From Ralstonia sp. UNC404CL21Col (GTDB taxonomy: Bacteria > Pseudomonadota > Gammaproteobacteria > Burkholderiales > Burkholderiaceae), in NCBI RefSeq assembly GCF_000620465.1, contig NZ_JIBE01000003.1, forward strand, positions 992,001-1,056,000: a DNA stretch of 64,000 nucleotides. The letters run 5' to 3'. The notes under the pieces were generated by a model. That model was given only the letters and a program-made list of their open reading frames with translations, was not told the DNA's origin and did not search any database. The stretch's first letter is position 1, and each line of letters starts with the position of its first letter. Shown piece after piece: positions 14,189 to 19,357 of the stretch. A program made the position numbers and the translations under genes.

Positions 14189-15511
14189 ATGACGAAAACG
14201 CCATGGAAGCCGCAAGGGGGGTCAACCCACGCGGTTACGTGCGCATGCCTGCTGCTATGCGGCGGGCCGGTCCTTGCACAGACCAACGAGCCGGTGGACG
14301 ACAAGCCACCCAGCCTGGAAGCGCTGCAGCGCGAGCTTGCCGATACGCAGGCACGCCTGCAGGAACTCAAACGCTCGATCCAGCAACAGGAAGCGCATCT
14401 TCGGCGCATGCGGCGCGCGCTCGGCATGAGCGAGGGCCGACTCGATACCGTGCGCGGTGCCGGTGCTCCCGGCGCGGCGGGCGATGCATCGCAAATTGCG
14501 CAGAACGACGAGCCCGGCACCACGCCAGTCGGCAAACCGCCGGAGCCGCCTGACCGGCCGCCACGCATCGCGCAGATCTTCGACGAGCCCAGCGCGCTGA
14601 CACCACCGGGCAAGGTGGTCGTCGAGCCGTCATTGCAGATGGCGTATTCGTCGTCGGACCGCGTGGCGCTGGTGGGCTACACCATCATCCCTGCGCTGCT
14701 GATCGGGCTGATCGACGTGCGGCAGGTGAAGACCACCACGCTGACCGGCACGGTGGCGGTGCGCTACGGCCTGGCACGACGCTGGGAACTGGAAGCGCGC
14801 GTGCCTTATGTCTACAGCGCGAGCGACACCGTCAGCCGCGAACTATTCACCGGCACAGCGACGGACAACGCTTTCAGCTCGCACGGCCGCGGCATCGGCG
14901 ATGTGGAGTTGACCGCGCGGTACCAGATCAATGCGGGCGGTGTCGACAAGCCGTTCTACATCGGCTGGCTGCGTTTCAAGACGCGCACCGGCAAGGATCC
15001 GTTTGAAGTCACCACCGATTGCGTGACGCGCTGCGTGAGCAATACCACGGGCACCGGCCTGCCGCTGCAGCAGCCGACGGGCTCGGGCTTCTTTGCGGTA
15101 CAGCCGGGGCTGACGTGGCTGTTCCCGACGGACCCCGCCGTGTTCTTCGGCAGCATCAGCTACCTGCACAACTTCGAGCGCAAGGATGTCAGCCTGAACC
15201 TGGTGGACGGCTCGAAGCAGTTCCTGGGCGACGTGAAGGCCGGCGACATCATCGGCCTGAACTTCGGCATGGGGTTGGCGCTGAACGAGAAGGCGTCGTT
15301 CTCCATCGGCTACGACCAGAGCATCATCGCGCCGACCAAGCAGAACGGCCAGCGCGTGCCGGGCTCGGTGCGAACCATTCTCGGCACGTTGCTGGTCGGC
15401 TATTCGTACCGGCTCTCGCCCAAGATGACGCTGAACCTGTCGGTGGGCGCAGGCCTGACGCGCGACACGCCGGACCTGACCGTCACGCTGCGTCTGCCGA
15501 TCCAGTTCTAG
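14189..15511 (+). CDS. FapF-like outer-membrane beta-barrel with N-terminal coiled coil
   Basis: The 440-residue protein starts with a signal peptide ending near VLAQ (residue 31). A coiled-coil helix (about 40-78, LEALQRELADTQARLQELKR) follows, then a Pro/Gly linker to about residue 125, and a C-terminal beta-barrel of alternating amphipathic strands ending in TVTLRLPIQF, with a terminal aromatic residue as usual for outer-membrane proteins. This order (signal, coiled coil, linker, about 12-strand barrel) is that of FapF, the trimeric channel that exports amyloid subunits in Pseudomonas. It faces a C39 peptidase and exported repeat proteins on the opposite strand, which supports that role. 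Alternative: a generic transporter of the phenol-degradation MetA-pathway family. It is convergent with the gene at 15513-16058, separated by one base. Confidence 0.72.
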   Translation: MTKTPWKPQGGSTHAVTCACLLLCGGPVLAQTNEPVDDKPPSLEALQRELADTQARLQELKRSIQQQEAHLRRMRRALGMSEGRLDTVRGAGAPGAAGDASQIAQNDEPGTTPVGKPPEPPDRPPRIAQIFDEPSALTPPGKVVVEPSLQMAYSSSDRVALVGYTIIPALLIGLIDVRQVKTTTLTGTVAVRYGLARRWELEARVPYVYSASDTVSRELFTGTATDNAFSSHGRGIGDVELTARYQINAGGVDKPFYIGWLRFKTRTGKDPFEVTTDCVTRCVSNTTGTGLPLQQPTGSGFFAVQPGLTWLFPTDPAVFFGSISYLHNFERKDVSLNLVDGSKQFLGDVKAGDIIGLNFGMGLALNEKASFSIGYDQSIIAPTKQNGQRVPGSVRTILGTLLVGYSYRLSPKMTLNLSVGAGLTRDTPDLTVTLRLPIQF

Positions 15512-15512
15512 C

Positions 15513-16058
15513 TCAGTGCAGCAGGGTGACGACGTTGGCCAACGCGCCTTGCAGCACGTTGGAAAGATTCAGTTGACGGAACTGCGGCAGGCTGTTGACC
15601 GCTGCGTTGATGGTCGTCACGGCTTGCAGCGTCTGGTTGTTCAGACTGTTCTGGATGACCGTGGCCGCTGCAGCCGCGCCGGCGGCCACATCGGGCGGCG
15701 CGACATTGTTGGGCCCGTTCTGCACAAGGTTGACGGTGTTGACCACCGAGGCCAGTTGCTGCGCCTGGCTGGCCGTCATGCGTGCCACATCGGGGATGTT
15801 GACCGATGCGCTCGCCACCAGATCGCCGTTGATGTAGACCGCACGGTCGATGCCGAACGAGATGTGCAGCCCTGCAAGCGCGGGCACATCGAAGCCGCCG
15901 CGCATGTCGTCGAGCTTGTCTTCGGACACGGCGTGCCAGGCACGGACCGGATTGTTGTCCATGCTGTCCACGCCGGCCGCATACGCATGCCCGGCCGCAG
16001 CCAGCGCAAGCCATCCTGCACATCCCGCAGCCCGCGCCACCTTGCCAAACCGCTTCAT
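15513..16058 (-). CDS. Small exported protein with double-glycine-like motif, Fap-locus associated
   Basis: The 181-residue protein has a signal peptide cut near HAYA-AGVD (residue 27). Downstream is VSEDKLDDMRGG (residues 44-55), which fits the consensus of double-glycine leaders cleaved by C39 peptidases: hydrophobic residue and Ser at -12/-11, Leu at -7, hydrophobic at -4, Gly-Gly at -2/-1. The region after it (LHISFGIDRAVYINGDL) looks like beta strands. The C-terminal part is Asn/Gln-rich with VIQNSLNNQTLQ and ends in LNLSNVLQGALANVVTLLH. I take it as an accessory subunit like FapE/FapA or a substrate; the exact orthology is uncertain. It is 45 bp after the C39 peptidase gene, same strand. 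Confidence 0.6.
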   Translation of the reverse strand: MKRFGKVARAAGCAGWLALAAAGHAYAAGVDSMDNNPVRAWHAVSEDKLDDMRGGFDVPALAGLHISFGIDRAVYINGDLVASASVNIPDVARMTASQAQQLASVVNTVNLVQNGPNNVAPPDVAAGAAAAATVIQNSLNNQTLQAVTTINAAVNSLPQFRQLNLSNVLQGALANVVTLLH

Positions 16059-16103
16059 GATGCCCTCCTGCCCGACCAGCGAATGGCCACCCGCAAACGA
16101 CGC

Positions 16104-16784
16104 TCAAAAGTCGGACGGACCATGCTTGGGAACGACGATGTTGCCCAGGCCGCTGCGGTCCATGCCTTCCTCCAGCGGCGCACGCGGTGCCACGCGCCAG
16201 TCCGATGAAGCGTTGAACGTCGCCCCCGCCTCGCGGTTGTGGACGACGAACAGCAAATGGTTGTCCCACATGCTCTCGAAGCTCGCACGCGGAATCGCAC
16301 GCGTGCCCATGGCCGGATCGCCCACGAGCACGCGCCCTTCCTGCACGCCCTTGACCACCACGAAGTGGTGATAGCCGTTCTCGGTCAACAGCACGATGGC
16401 CGGCAAGTGGGCGTCCTTCAATGCATCCAGCGGCTGCTCGAAACCATCCGCCTCAAAGCCCAGAGAGGCCAGATAGCGTTTGATGTCGAGCAGCGAAAAG
16501 CCTTCTCGCCGGATCTTCTCCTGGTTGCCATGCTCGTACATGGCCTGGAACACGGTCTGCTCGCTCACCGGGTAGCCGTACTGATACGTGAGCAGCGTCG
16601 CCACCGCGGCCGACCCGCAACTGAAGTCGAAACGCTGGTGGACGGTGCGCAGGTAGCGCGCGGCCTTCATGCTCGTCACTGGCACGGCATAGGTGCCGCC
16701 GCCCGTGCCGAGCATGTCGATCGCGCCCGCCCACGCAGGCCCGCACGCCAGCGCCATCAGCACCGCACCCGACGTCTTATGCAT
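16104..16784 (-). CDS. Periplasmic C39-family cysteine peptidase, FapD-like
   Basis: The 226-residue protein carries a signal peptide (to about residue 19, PAWA) and one C39 domain. The catalytic Cys is in RFDFSCGSAAVATLL (C56), the His in GYHHFVVVKG (about 139-140) and the Asp in VLVGDPAMGT (D156). Such stand-alone C39 proteins are FapD in Pseudomonas amyloid loci; C39 peptidases generally cut after Gly-Gly. The start was set at the second ATG of an ATGATG pair because AAGGA lies 7 nt upstream; in-frame starts at 16787 and 16799 are possible. It lies between two small genes whose products carry double-glycine-like motifs, which are the obvious candidate substrates. Confidence 0.82.
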   Translation of the reverse strand: MHKTSGAVLMALACGPAWAGAIDMLGTGGGTYAVPVTSMKAARYLRTVHQRFDFSCGSAAVATLLTYQYGYPVSEQTVFQAMYEHGNQEKIRREGFSLLDIKRYLASLGFEADGFEQPLDALKDAHLPAIVLLTENGYHHFVVVKGVQEGRVLVGDPAMGTRAIPRASFESMWDNHLLFVVHNREAGATFNASSDWRVAPRAPLEEGMDRSGLGNIVVPKHGPSDF

Positions 16785-16803
16785 CATTCCGTCCTTCACA
16801 AGC

Positions 16804-17241
16804 TCAAGGCCGGAACTGCACGTTGACGATGGTGGCGTTCTGGATCAGCACGTTCGCTCCGCTGTTCTGGATGACCGTGGGGATCCCGCTGGCATTGGCA
16901 AACGAGCCGTCGCGCACGATGTTCGACCCCGTCGCCACGTTGACGGCGGCGTTGTCGCTCACAGTGCCCGACAGGCGCGCGTCATTGACGGTCTGGTAGA
17001 GATCCTGCGTGCCGCCGCGATAGCTGTCGAGCCGATCGGCGCCCACCGCATGACCGAACCCAGGCACCGACACGGCTGCGGCGACCGGGGGACGCGCCGC
17101 TTCCGTGTTGGCGACCTGCGCACCGTCTGCGATCGGCACATCGTCCGACGCCATCGTTGCTGCCGCTGGCCACACTGCCAGGCCGCATGCCAGCCACCAT
17201 GCCGCCCATCCTGCTGTGGTTCTTCTTCTGTCGGATCGCAT
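16804..17241 (-). CDS. Small exported protein with double-glycine-like motif and amyloid-like C-terminus
   Basis: The 145-residue protein has a signal peptide (hydrophobic stretch 12-28). The motif VGADRLDSYRGG (66-77) parallels VSEDKLDDMRGG in the protein encoded at 15513-16058, so it is a likely cut site for the C39 peptidase. The segment after the motif (78-145) is rich in Asn, Val, Ala and Ser in short alternating stretches (TVSDNAAVNVATGSNIVRDG, FANASGIPTVIQNSGANVLIQ), as in beta-solenoid or amyloid repeat proteins. A FapB/FapC-like minor subunit is the best guess; no sequence-level orthology can be proved here. It is 19 bp upstream of the C39 gene. Confidence 0.6.
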   Translation of the reverse strand: MRSDRRRTTAGWAAWWLACGLAVWPAAATMASDDVPIADGAQVANTEAARPPVAAAVSVPGFGHAVGADRLDSYRGGTQDLYQTVNDARLSGTVSDNAAVNVATGSNIVRDGSFANASGIPTVIQNSGANVLIQNATIVNVQFRP

Positions 17242-17366
17242 CGAATGTCTCCTCTACGCTCCAACTGCGGGCCGGACCGCCGATGCAGTCCGACCCCATC
17301 CACCGTCATGCGCGAAGCTTCATCGCTACGCGCCGCGGCACTTCCCCGCTCGTGCCCGAGACCGGG

Positions 17367-18656
17367 CTACTTGCCCACATTCAGGTTGGCCTGCACGTTG
17401 ATGCTTTGCTGGATGAGGGAAGCGAAGCCGCTGTTCTGGTTCGCCACCATCACGCCTGCCGCAGACTGCCCGACGCTGGTCATGGCGTTGGACATGTTGA
17501 ACGTGCCTGCATCCACCACGACCGTGCCGCCGGCGCCGCCCGTGCCGCCCACCGCGCCATTGCCGACGCCGCCGTTGCCAACGCCGCCTGCGCCGCCGGC
17601 CGCACCGACTGCACCCACAGCGCCATTGCCGGCCGTGGACGACGCCGCGCCGTTGGTTGCGCTGCCGTTGGTCGCGCTGCCGCCTGCGCCGCCGTTGCCG
17701 GCCACGTTGGTCGCTGCGCCGCCAGCAGCTCCGGCCCCGCCCGTGCTCGTGCCCGTGGCAGCGCTCGTGCCCGTGCCTGCACCGGCCGATGCCGTCGACG
17801 TGCCGCTAGTGGTAGCGCCGCCGGCGCCGCCTGCCCCGCCTGCCGAGGCACTGCCGCCGCCGGTGGCCGAGCCGCTGCCGCGATGACGGTTCGCATCGCC
17901 GCCGCTGGCGCTGGACGTGCCGCCAGCCCCGCCGCCGCCACCGCCCGCTGCGCTCGTGCTGCCCGCTGCACCGCCCAGGCCCGCGCCCAGGCTCGCGGAC
18001 AGCGTGCCGGAGCTGCCGCCGTTACCGCCACCGCCCGCATCGCCGCCGGCGGCTCCGCCGTTGCCGCCGTTACCGGCCACGGCCCCGCCGTTGGTTGCGC
18101 TGCCATGCGTCACGCTGCCCGAACTGCCACCAGCGCCGCCGCTGCCGCCCGCGCCGCCCGCGCCGCCATTACCGCCAGAGCCTGTGCCGCCGTAGCCGTA
18201 TCCGCCACGCCCGCCGCTGCCGCCATTCGCCGTGCCGCCATTGTTGGTGGCGACATTGCCGATGCCAGACACGCTGATGTTGGTGACGGTGCCGTCCAGC
18301 TTGGAAACCGCAATCGCCTTGCTTGTGTTGAAGGAGTTGGTGAACGTTGCCGTTGCCGTGCCGCCGTTGTTGGCTGCAGCGGTGCCATAGCCATCGGCAT
18401 TGGCCCAGCCGCTGTTGTCGCGGTTGCTGCCCTGGCTTTGGTTGTTGTGCTGATTCGAGTTGTCGGTTGCCGTGGTGGTTGTGGTCGTTGCCGTGCTCGT
18501 TGTCGTGTCTGTGCTGGTATTGGTTCTGGTGATGGTCGACGTGTTGGTCTGGGTCTTGTCACCCGCGCCGGACGCCGTATTCCCGATATCGGCCAATGCA
18601 ACGCCAGAGACCCCCAATCCCATGGCGATCGCGGTGGCCAGTAAGGTCTTCTTCAT
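17367..18656 (-). CDS. Gly/Ala/Ser-rich exported repeat protein, candidate amyloid or matrix fibre
   Basis: The 429-residue protein begins with a signal peptide (MKKTLLATAIAMG..., cleavage near VALA-DIG at residue 22). It then has a Ser/Thr/Asn-rich segment (about 24-115), a long Gly/Ala/Ser/Asn low-complexity region (about 120-375, repeated GGAGG, TNGSATNG and GNGGVGNG units), and a distinct hydrophobic C-terminus containing ANQNSGFASLIQQS and NVQANLNV. There are no cysteines. The ATG at 18656 is preceded by GGAG with good spacing, which decides it against an ATG four codons upstream. The Fap-like neighbours suggest it is the exported fibre subunit, but the composition also resembles generic surface glycine-rich proteins. 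Confidence 0.65.
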   Translation of the reverse strand: MKKTLLATAIAMGLGVSGVALADIGNTASGAGDKTQTNTSTITRTNTSTDTTTSTATTTTTTATDNSNQHNNQSQGSNRDNSGWANADGYGTAAANNGGTATATFTNSFNTSKAIAVSKLDGTVTNISVSGIGNVATNNGGTANGGSGGRGGYGYGGTGSGGNGGAGGAGGSGGAGGSSGSVTHGSATNGGAVAGNGGNGGAAGGDAGGGGNGGSSGTLSASLGAGLGGAAGSTSAAGGGGGGAGGTSSASGGDANRHRGSGSATGGGSASAGGAGGAGGATTSGTSTASAGAGTGTSAATGTSTGGAGAAGGAATNVAGNGGAGGSATNGSATNGAASSTAGNGAVGAVGAAGGAGGVGNGGVGNGAVGGTGGAGGTVVVDAGTFNMSNAMTSVGQSAAGVMVANQNSGFASLIQQSINVQANLNVGK

Positions 18657-19357
18657 AACGCACTCCATAAAGGTGAGAGGGACGGCTGGAAACGCAGCCA
18701 GTCAGGCCGGCGCGCTCTGCCTGTGGGAACAACATGACCCACCCCGGGGCGGCTCGTTTGCATAATCGGTGCCACCTTCCGCGCACGCTTTACACGGCTG
18801 TTCTAAGCGTTTGAAAACGCAAAAGATTCACCGGCACGCTCGTACACAAGCGCACGTCGAGCCACGCAATCGTGTCGGGACATGCAACTTTTGGAGGCCG
18901 GTTTGCGCGCCTTCGGTTGCAGCGCTGATACACCGCCCTGGCGCGCATGGCCGCCACGGCATGCATGACCTTCGCGGCAAGACGCAAAGCACGCGCAGGC
19001 ATGCGCACGGCGGCGCTGTTTGAGACGAGCGATTGGTTGGATGTTTCAGCCGTGATACATCGGCGCATCGGCGCTCACATTGCGTGAGCGGTGGGGCGCG
19101 GCGGGCGAGCATCCCGTGGCGCACGTCGCGTTGCGCGACGCGCCTCGATGTCGTGCGCACCGCAGGGTTGACGCCTTGCGCGGCCGCTTGACTGCGAGCG
19201 CCCCCTATCGGCAAGACGCATGCGGGAAACGAGTCTCGGTTTTTACCTCAGGGGTTGCCCAGGCAGGCGAACAAAATTGCGCGCGGCAAGCATCGTCATG
19301 GCAACGAAAAGCCGCGCGCAACCGGTTCGCATTTCAACTGCGAAACTGCAAGCTCCT
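18657..19357. other. Intergenic region, no gene seen
   Basis: About 700 bp between the glycine-rich exported protein and the acyl-CoA synthetase, both minus strand. Open frames here are short and have no recognisable products. The right-hand part (18,660-18,850) should hold the promoter of the Fap-like minus-strand genes. I saw no convincing terminator hairpin, repeat or RNA gene. Confidence 0.5.

Follow-up and report, generated by a model that had tools for sequence, protein, structure and literature searches.

Which proteins would an exported C39 peptidase cut when it is encoded beside an outer-membrane barrel, and by what sequence would it recognise them? The question is raised by a locus in a 64,000-nucleotide stretch of the genome of Ralstonia sp. 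UNC404CL21Col (contig NZ_JIBE01000003.1, positions 992,001 to 1,056,000; the whole of this stretch is hereafter called the window), where two small exported proteins, here named E and A, each carry a sequence of the kind that C39 peptidases recognise. Our analysis suggests that E and A are probably preproproteins, which would be exported by the Sec pathway and then relieved of a propeptide by the C39 protein in the periplasm. The initial annotation of the locus had placed the C39 gene between E and A, with a FapF-like barrel facing them, and coordinates, strands and matches in Pfam and PDB confirm this arrangement:

14189..15511, plus strand: FapF-like outer-membrane barrel of 440 amino acids with an N-terminal coiled-coil-like stretch (NCBIfam FapF, PDB)
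15513..16058, minus strand: E protein, 181 amino acids, exported; occupies the FapE position and is the main candidate substrate
15894..15935, minus strand: E leader HAVSEDKLDDMRGG, residues 42-55, followed by F, in frame
16104..16799, minus strand: periplasmic C39 peptidase, 231-amino-acid frame (Pfam PF03412, 6e-24)
16617..16619, minus strand: codon of the catalytic Cys61 (with Gln55, His145 and Asp161), invariant in three C39 classes
16804..17241, minus strand: A protein, 145 amino acids, small and exported; second candidate substrate
17011..17052, minus strand: A leader HAVGADRLDSYRGG, residues 64-77, followed by T, in frame

Both leaders lie in frame where the initial annotation had put them, after signal-peptide-like N-termini, and both agree with the C39 leader consensus (a hydrophobic residue at -12, Leu at -7, a hydrophobic residue at -4 and a final Gly-Gly) if Tyr is allowed to count at -4. 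The cut is predicted after Gly55 and before Phe56 in E, and after Gly77 in A. L[DE]xxRGG, written as a degenerate DNA pattern (with leucines limited to CTN and the second base of the -4 codon to A or T), gave 19 matches in the whole genome, compared with 7 for a reversed-pattern control, and among the 19 translations inspected only E and A have the motif in frame in exported proteins. In the related loci, recurring RLSP(F/L)RGGQG matches in stop-to-stop frames were set aside, as they overlap the C39 gene in another frame.

Loci for comparison came from one scan of genome contigs, which gave 44 related loci, and from a 398-genome sample of the phylum, which led to 39 genomes with FapD-like peptidases; neighbours and score divided the loci into three kinds, the window's class, Fap and Fil. 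The count for E comprises 59 loci (43 on named contigs and 16 from the genomes with G handles), the window included as L121. It does not include L001, which duplicates part of the window; L035, whose contig ends just past the C39 gene, supplies only its A protein and was not counted for E. Many of the Ralstonia loci are near-copies, the distinct sites numbering 54 for E and 45 for A. The motif conservation among homologues that the initial annotation had proposed to check is borne out, with E carrying the motif in 58/59 loci and A, as RGG, in 52/59. The lone exception for E, L088, is a decayed locus in which the C39, E and A frames are all shortened; here (L088:5843-6625, in G070) the E motif has been lost along with the full-length C39 frame. 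Because the regular expression for E demanded Leu or Met at -7 and RGG, and the one for FapE demanded Leu or Met at -7, Gly at -2, Lys or Arg at -1 and Tyr or Phe at +1, the free evidence of the sequence logos is confined to the remaining positions. Among these, the +1 residue of E is Phe in 54/54 distinct sites and its -4 residue is Met, Leu, Tyr or Ala in 52/54, while in A the -4 residue is Tyr, Met, Leu or Val in 33/45. Across 33 aligned E proteins, with rows chosen among the motif-bearing ones, 12 columns are invariant, and five of them are L49 (-7), R53 (-3), G54 (-2), G55 (-1) and F56 (+1). An E profile, for which no more than 8 candidates per genome were scored, finds 11 of the 398 genomes, every match being at a C39 locus. 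These 11 are part of the 16 genomes with the window's class; G070, G086, G138, G332 and G383 were reached through a wider profile, and E or its remains were detected in them as well. In G138, the A-C39-E block is tandemly duplicated (L112:5621-10070), in a region that contains one FapF-like gene.

What was seen in the window is more general than the initial annotation had claimed. In the FapE proteins of true fap loci (identified through NCBIfam NF058559 for the three tested), the leader stands 19-47 residues (median 25) past the predicted signal cut, as in ESVFKPIELKDQELAQLRGK followed by YVMPG, where counting of the residues ahead of YVMPG starts at the signal cut. The 21 proteins (20 loci) all have Leu or Met at -7, Gly at -2, Lys or Arg at -1 and Tyr or Phe at +1, and the 19 distinct sites have Leu, Ile or Val at -12 (19), Asp or Glu at -10 (19), Glu at -8 (17) and Arg at -3 (17). 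These positions reproduce the C39 consensus of the literature, L-12 xxx E-8 L-7 xxxx G-2 G-1 (PMC6959990), with the last Gly exchanged for Lys or Arg; according to the available text of PMC6363468 and PMC6959990, C39 domains need -12 and -7 for binding or cutting and tolerate other residues at -3 and -8. The motif had at one stage been considered private to the window's class, a strict RGG search being empty in the FapE position and in FilA, a view that was dropped because a reading of FapE revealed the substitution at -1. An attempt to establish E as a homologue of FapE was also rejected: hhalign gives 85% over 45 columns with the leader, 1% for the mature part and 7% for its first 50 residues (the E set having 59 rows, one of them the A protein of L035). 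For E, therefore, "FapE position" appears to be the appropriate term, and not homology.

A similar leader, ending in Gln, follows the signal by 15-18 residues in FilA/DUF6160 (nine proteins, from 6/9 Fil-type loci), with the ending Thr-Gly-Gln in eight and Val-Ala-Gln in one. No FilA lies next to the C39 gene in L076, L077 and L084; DUF6160 occurs elsewhere in the genomes of L076 and L077, and none was found in that of L084. The leader is also present in 11/12 DUF6160 loci from three genomes, ending TGQ, NGQ or SGQ; among these loci L143 is the FilA that neighbours the peptidase gene, and one protein appears twice, as L148 and L152. These loci (L141-L152; G138, G174 and G261) include scattered DUF6160 proteins in which a signal-like start precedes the TGQ, SGQ or NGQ leader, and which are possible FilB substrates at a distance. 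FilB-type C39 proteins above 280 bits are found in 8/398 genomes, DUF6160 in 10 and both in 8; the 280-bit line is our own, the next score being 130 bits and the curated cut-off 475.

Leaders of this type are rare elsewhere in the same loci. Export of E, A, the C39 protein and a Gly-rich neighbour was called by inspection and by a rule of thumb. For the comparison with other reading frames a single rule for signal-like N-termini was used, which passes as exported-like 41/59 E, 50/59 A, 19/21 FapE and 8/9 FilA proteins. Under this rule the leader is found in 37/41 E, 40/50 A, 17/19 FapE and 8/8 FilA, while among the 631 other exported-like open reading frames an RG[GKR] leader occurs in 4 and a TGQ leader in none. 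The four are the neighbour of a lone C39 gene (L085), a FapF (L109), a second copy of E (L112) and a gene that seems to open a fap operon (L110), so that at least three of them are candidate substrates themselves. Two of these places deserve description. In L085:5170-6622 (G255:C130) the C39 gene comes directly after a small, exported-looking, Gly/Ala-rich and bacteriocin-like protein with the leader IDTSEMDEVRGR followed by F, and no FapF was found nearby. In L110:9507-10151 and L200:4257-4901 (G322) the apparent first protein of the fap operon is exported-looking and has the Gly-Gly leader LDDQVLSRQRGG, despite which the FapE of the G322 operon ends TGK.

A tree of 67 C39 cores (of 92, with near-copies removed) places the window's class in one group (94/92), apart from Fap (96/83). 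Five of the six FilB rows group at 100/100, and L084, which may not be Fil, stands apart on a very long branch. The C39 proteins of the window's class, whose record titles name Ralstonia, Variovorax, Polaromonas, Lysobacter and others and which have no dedicated family models in the libraries searched, form a third class beside FapD and FilB. The window's C39 protein scores 136 bits against NCBIfam FapD (cut-off 330) and 127 bits against FilB (cut-off 475), and no second match of this kind was found in its genome; its sole PHROGs match is an ATP-binding cassette (ABC) transporter, and its 231-residue frame has no further domain match and, by inspection, a signal-like start. Gln55, Cys61, His145 and Asp161 are invariant in 61/61 proteins of the window's class, 21/21 of Fap and 9/9 of Fil, the cores having been excised with a pattern that seeks the Gln and the Cys and that every hit passed. 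The catalytic Cys is residue 61 of the 231-residue frame, and the C56 of the initial annotation is correct if translation starts at Met6. Residues 116, 118 and 121 form a strip that sets the window's class apart, being acidic there but basic in the FapD and FilB proteins. Charge complementarity between leader and strip was considered and rejected: the mean leader charge from -14 to -5 is -1.7 in E and -1.0 in A, and as these leaders are slightly acidic like the strip that they would meet, no complementarity is claimed.

Genomes with two systems allow the leaders to be compared within one cell. All 16 Ralstonia genomes have one match to the FapD model at 134-149 bits, like the window's C39 protein, and 8/16 have, besides a FapE match, an additional match to the FapD model at 192-197 bits. 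In the latter, FapE reads RGK in 8/8, E of the window's class reads RGG in 5/5 fetched loci, and A of the window's class reads RGG in the four loci where the filter gave a site; the fifth, L193, has no A site under the filter, and the locus L043 of an uncultured Ralstonia reads RGG. Where sequences were fetched, each coexisting system has its own leader type.

The same genomes bear on an alternative in which the linker of FapF would be the important substrate of the C39 peptidase, its cutting releasing or closing a plug of the pore, and E and A would be secondary. The window has a possible third C39 site of this kind:

14420..14461, plus strand: possible third C39 site, LGMSEGRLDTVRGA, of the Gly-Ala type, located in the linker of FapF past the coiled coil

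The linker site is present in the majority of Ralstonia copies, and there it is matched to the class, as RGR in 8/8 Fap-type FapF proteins and RGA in 5/5 fetched proteins of the window's class, and the idea is in print for Pseudomonas (PMC5557850). We give it hardly any credence, as the site is patchy outside Ralstonia: a regular expression finds it in just 20/84 FapF-like frames overall, some of these hits being spurious, and among the frames listed it is missing in the Variovorax, the Polaromonas and most of the Pseudomonas-type FapF proteins, whereas the leader is present in E in 58/59 loci and in 21/21 FapE proteins. It is also very improbable that the motif is unrelated to the peptidase and is instead the conserved N-terminus of the mature protein or a place where FapF or fibres dock. 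The motif does adjoin the conserved Phe/Tyr, in E it lies near an SFGI segment, and it stands at no fixed distance from the signal peptide, but the register is that of a C39 leader in proteins with mostly dissimilar mature parts (E, A, FapE and FilA), and the motif tracks the class of the C39 protein within single genomes. Under a further alternative the leader would be a docking peptide, by which the C39 protein binds its partner and chaperones it uncut to FapF, as certain type I systems do with their C39-like domains. In Fap and Fil the -1 residue is Lys, Arg or Gln, and some A proteins have RGR or SGR, which suits binding better than the chemistry known for Gly-Gly, and the groove for -4, -7 and -12 lies about 20 Å from the active site (PMC6363468). 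We nevertheless consider docking unlikely, since the catalytic residues are invariant across the three classes and Gly-Gly is retained in 58/59 E loci. In Pseudomonas, moreover, a Cys-to-Ala mutant of FapD abolished the secretion of FapC, and the available text of the same study reports FapE as the only Fap protein with complete N-terminal processing, its first ~70 residues being free of peptides in mass spectrometry (PMC5557850, 2017).

FapD-type processing of E and A by the C39 protein after Sec export, as the initial annotation proposed, is well supported by the conservation of the leader, its low background in other exported-like reading frames and the intact catalytic residues, and by the related Fap and Fil systems, whose leaders share this register. 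Several points weigh against it. In the window's class the cleavage of the leaders is predicted from sequence; in FapE and FilA the true cut could be shifted or absent, and Lys, Arg or Gln at -1 is unexpected for the C39 clefts that have been solved, whose narrowness accounts for the preference for Gly-Gly (PMC6959990). A loss of Gly-Gly beside an intact C39 gene, named by the initial annotation as a case that would speak against processing, is not seen for E (58 loci) and is seen for A in six: RGR in L086, L118 and L111, SGR in L112 and L113, and HAG in L039, the remaining non-RGG locus being the decayed L088. The rule for A must therefore be looser, and its -4 residue is Gln, Ser, His or Thr in 12/45 distinct sites. 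The distance from signal to leader, whose conservation the initial annotation had proposed to check, varies widely (20-82 residues in E and 12-68 in A, by a rough rule, which puts some signals in the wrong place). Homology between E and FapE is not demonstrable beyond the leader (the 1% and 7% above), 2/10 genomes with DUF6160 lack a FilB-type C39 protein, the strip at 116/118/121 is not complementary to the leaders in the window's class, and no covariation was found between the leader's -4 residue and predicted pocket residue 181, the equivalent of PCAT1 G135 by our own pairing.

If E and A are indeed preproproteins, the Sec signal would carry them to the periplasm and be removed. The groove of the C39 protein would then dock the leader, which has a hydrophobic -12 residue, Leu at -7, a usually hydrophobic -4 residue, Arg at -3 and Gly-Gly, and the enzyme would cut after -1, freeing a short mature chain that starts with Phe or Tyr in E and FapE. 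The mature chains would leave through the FapF-like barrel together with the Gly-rich protein. The same arrangement would hold in true Fap operons for the pair FapD-FapE, with Lys or Arg at -1, and probably for FilB and FilA/DUF6160, with Gln at -1. We infer from the leader the cut itself, the exact bond and the licensing of secretion by the cut; the propeptide might keep the chain inert or address it to FapF, and E and A may be amyloid-related substrates, as the initial annotation suggested. For the Pseudomonadota as a whole, the chances seem to us about even that a general two-signal code for secretion across the outer membrane exists, in which a Sec signal is followed by a double-glycine-type leader read by a periplasmic C39 protein, the -1 residue marking the peptidase (Gly for the window's class, Lys or Arg for Fap and Gln for Fil). 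If so, the Gly-Lys/Arg site of FapE would be the target of FapD, scattered DUF6160 proteins would be targets of FilB, and two codes would run in parallel in one cell in 8/16 Ralstonia genomes.

FapE and FapF were already suspected to be FapD targets (PMC5557850; PMC12822426), and it is the recognition sequence that is new. The Fap proteins were said to be without canonical C39 sequences and the target of FapD was called unclear (available text of PMC5557850), and in the portion available of a 2025 review FapD "is thought to" process the N-terminus of FapE and a periplasmic region of FapF (PMC12822426). A docking study treated FapC as the substrate (PMC10638192), which is disfavoured because peptides were seen throughout FapA-D (PMC5557850). 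No paper naming the leader or the third class was found among the papers listed from the open-licence PMC literature available, and other papers are possible. The system of the window shows the textbook Gly-Gly site, and by alignment with it the leader can be recognised in all FapE proteins examined (21/21, and 8/8 in the two-system Ralstonia genomes). The FapE leader is one residue off the canonical one. It offers an exact bond and point mutations with which FapD's target could be tested, and it could point to a way of blocking the secretion of biofilm amyloid. The leader also marks out a third class of such secretion systems.

The genes around the two candidate substrates are transcribed on the minus strand in the order Gly-rich exported protein, A, C39 peptidase and E, and the plus-strand barrel gene is convergent with them. 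The first of them is:

17367..18668, minus strand: Gly-rich exported protein, 433 amino acids, alternative start 18656

The Gly-rich protein is presumed to be a secreted fibre or surface subunit; it has no Gly-Gly leader after the signal and no NCBIfam match, and no FapB/C repeats were seen in it. E has no family in Pfam, NCBIfam or PHROGs, and a PDB sequence search gives it a weak match to MPT70 (E 0.0079, residues 77-176) and another at 0.79. A has no NCBIfam match and one Pfam match at chance level (E 0.18). The C-terminal parts of mature E and A have in common a TVIQNSxxNxxIQ-like segment (hhalign 89.5%, E 2e-6), to which the IQQSINVQ at the C-terminal end of the Gly-rich protein looks similar, and which may be a common element of fibre contact. 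The barrel scores 159 bits against NCBIfam FapF (cut-off 700), and in a sequence search it matches the FapF crystal structures PDB 5O65, 5O67 and 5O68 with E 6e-32 to 4e-33.

The locus was initially annotated as Fap-like, which holds as an analogy and does not hold as membership, since no FapB/C repeats were seen and the scores stay below the curated cut-offs for FapD and FapF. With the Pseudomonas system FapD-FapE-FapF the window's class shares a periplasmic C39 protein, a FapF homologue and a small exported protein whose leader has the same register, and in 12/54 of its loci with FapF also the D-E-F order on one strand. It differs in that its leader ends Gly-Gly and that of Fap Gly-Lys/Arg, and in having a second leader-bearing protein, A. 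The window locus has no NCBIfam match to the FapA, FapB, FapC or FapE families, none of E or A matching FapE, and at least two repeats of the NQxAGxxN type typical of FapB/C occur in no open reading frame of the window-class loci compared with 17 in the Fap-class loci. Since many true Fap relatives outside Pseudomonas miss the strict cut-offs (that of FapD is passed by 8 of the 398 genomes), the cut-off test alone is weak. A GTDB survey demanded FapB/C repeats and at least three other fap genes (PMC12392863), and by these criteria, as given in the text available, the window's class would be passed over.

The Fil system (FilA/DUF6160, FilB C39 protein and FilC barrel; a putative pilus) likewise combines a C39 protein and a barrel with an exported protein in which a C39-type leader follows the signal; the Fil leader ends TGQ, and the window's C39 protein is in a separate clade. 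DUF6160 was not found in the window's genome, and as the FilB cut-off is passed by 0/398 genomes, only the DUF6160 half of the comparison discriminates. The C39 ABC exporters (PCAT1-CtA, LahT, ComA-ComC and the microcins) share with the window's class the -12/-7/-4/-2/-1 register and the C39 catalytic residues. In these exporters export is directed by the leader itself, which the fused ABC transporter removes in the cytosol; in the window's class, by contrast, a Sec-like signal precedes the leader, and the peptidase is exported as a free-standing protein.

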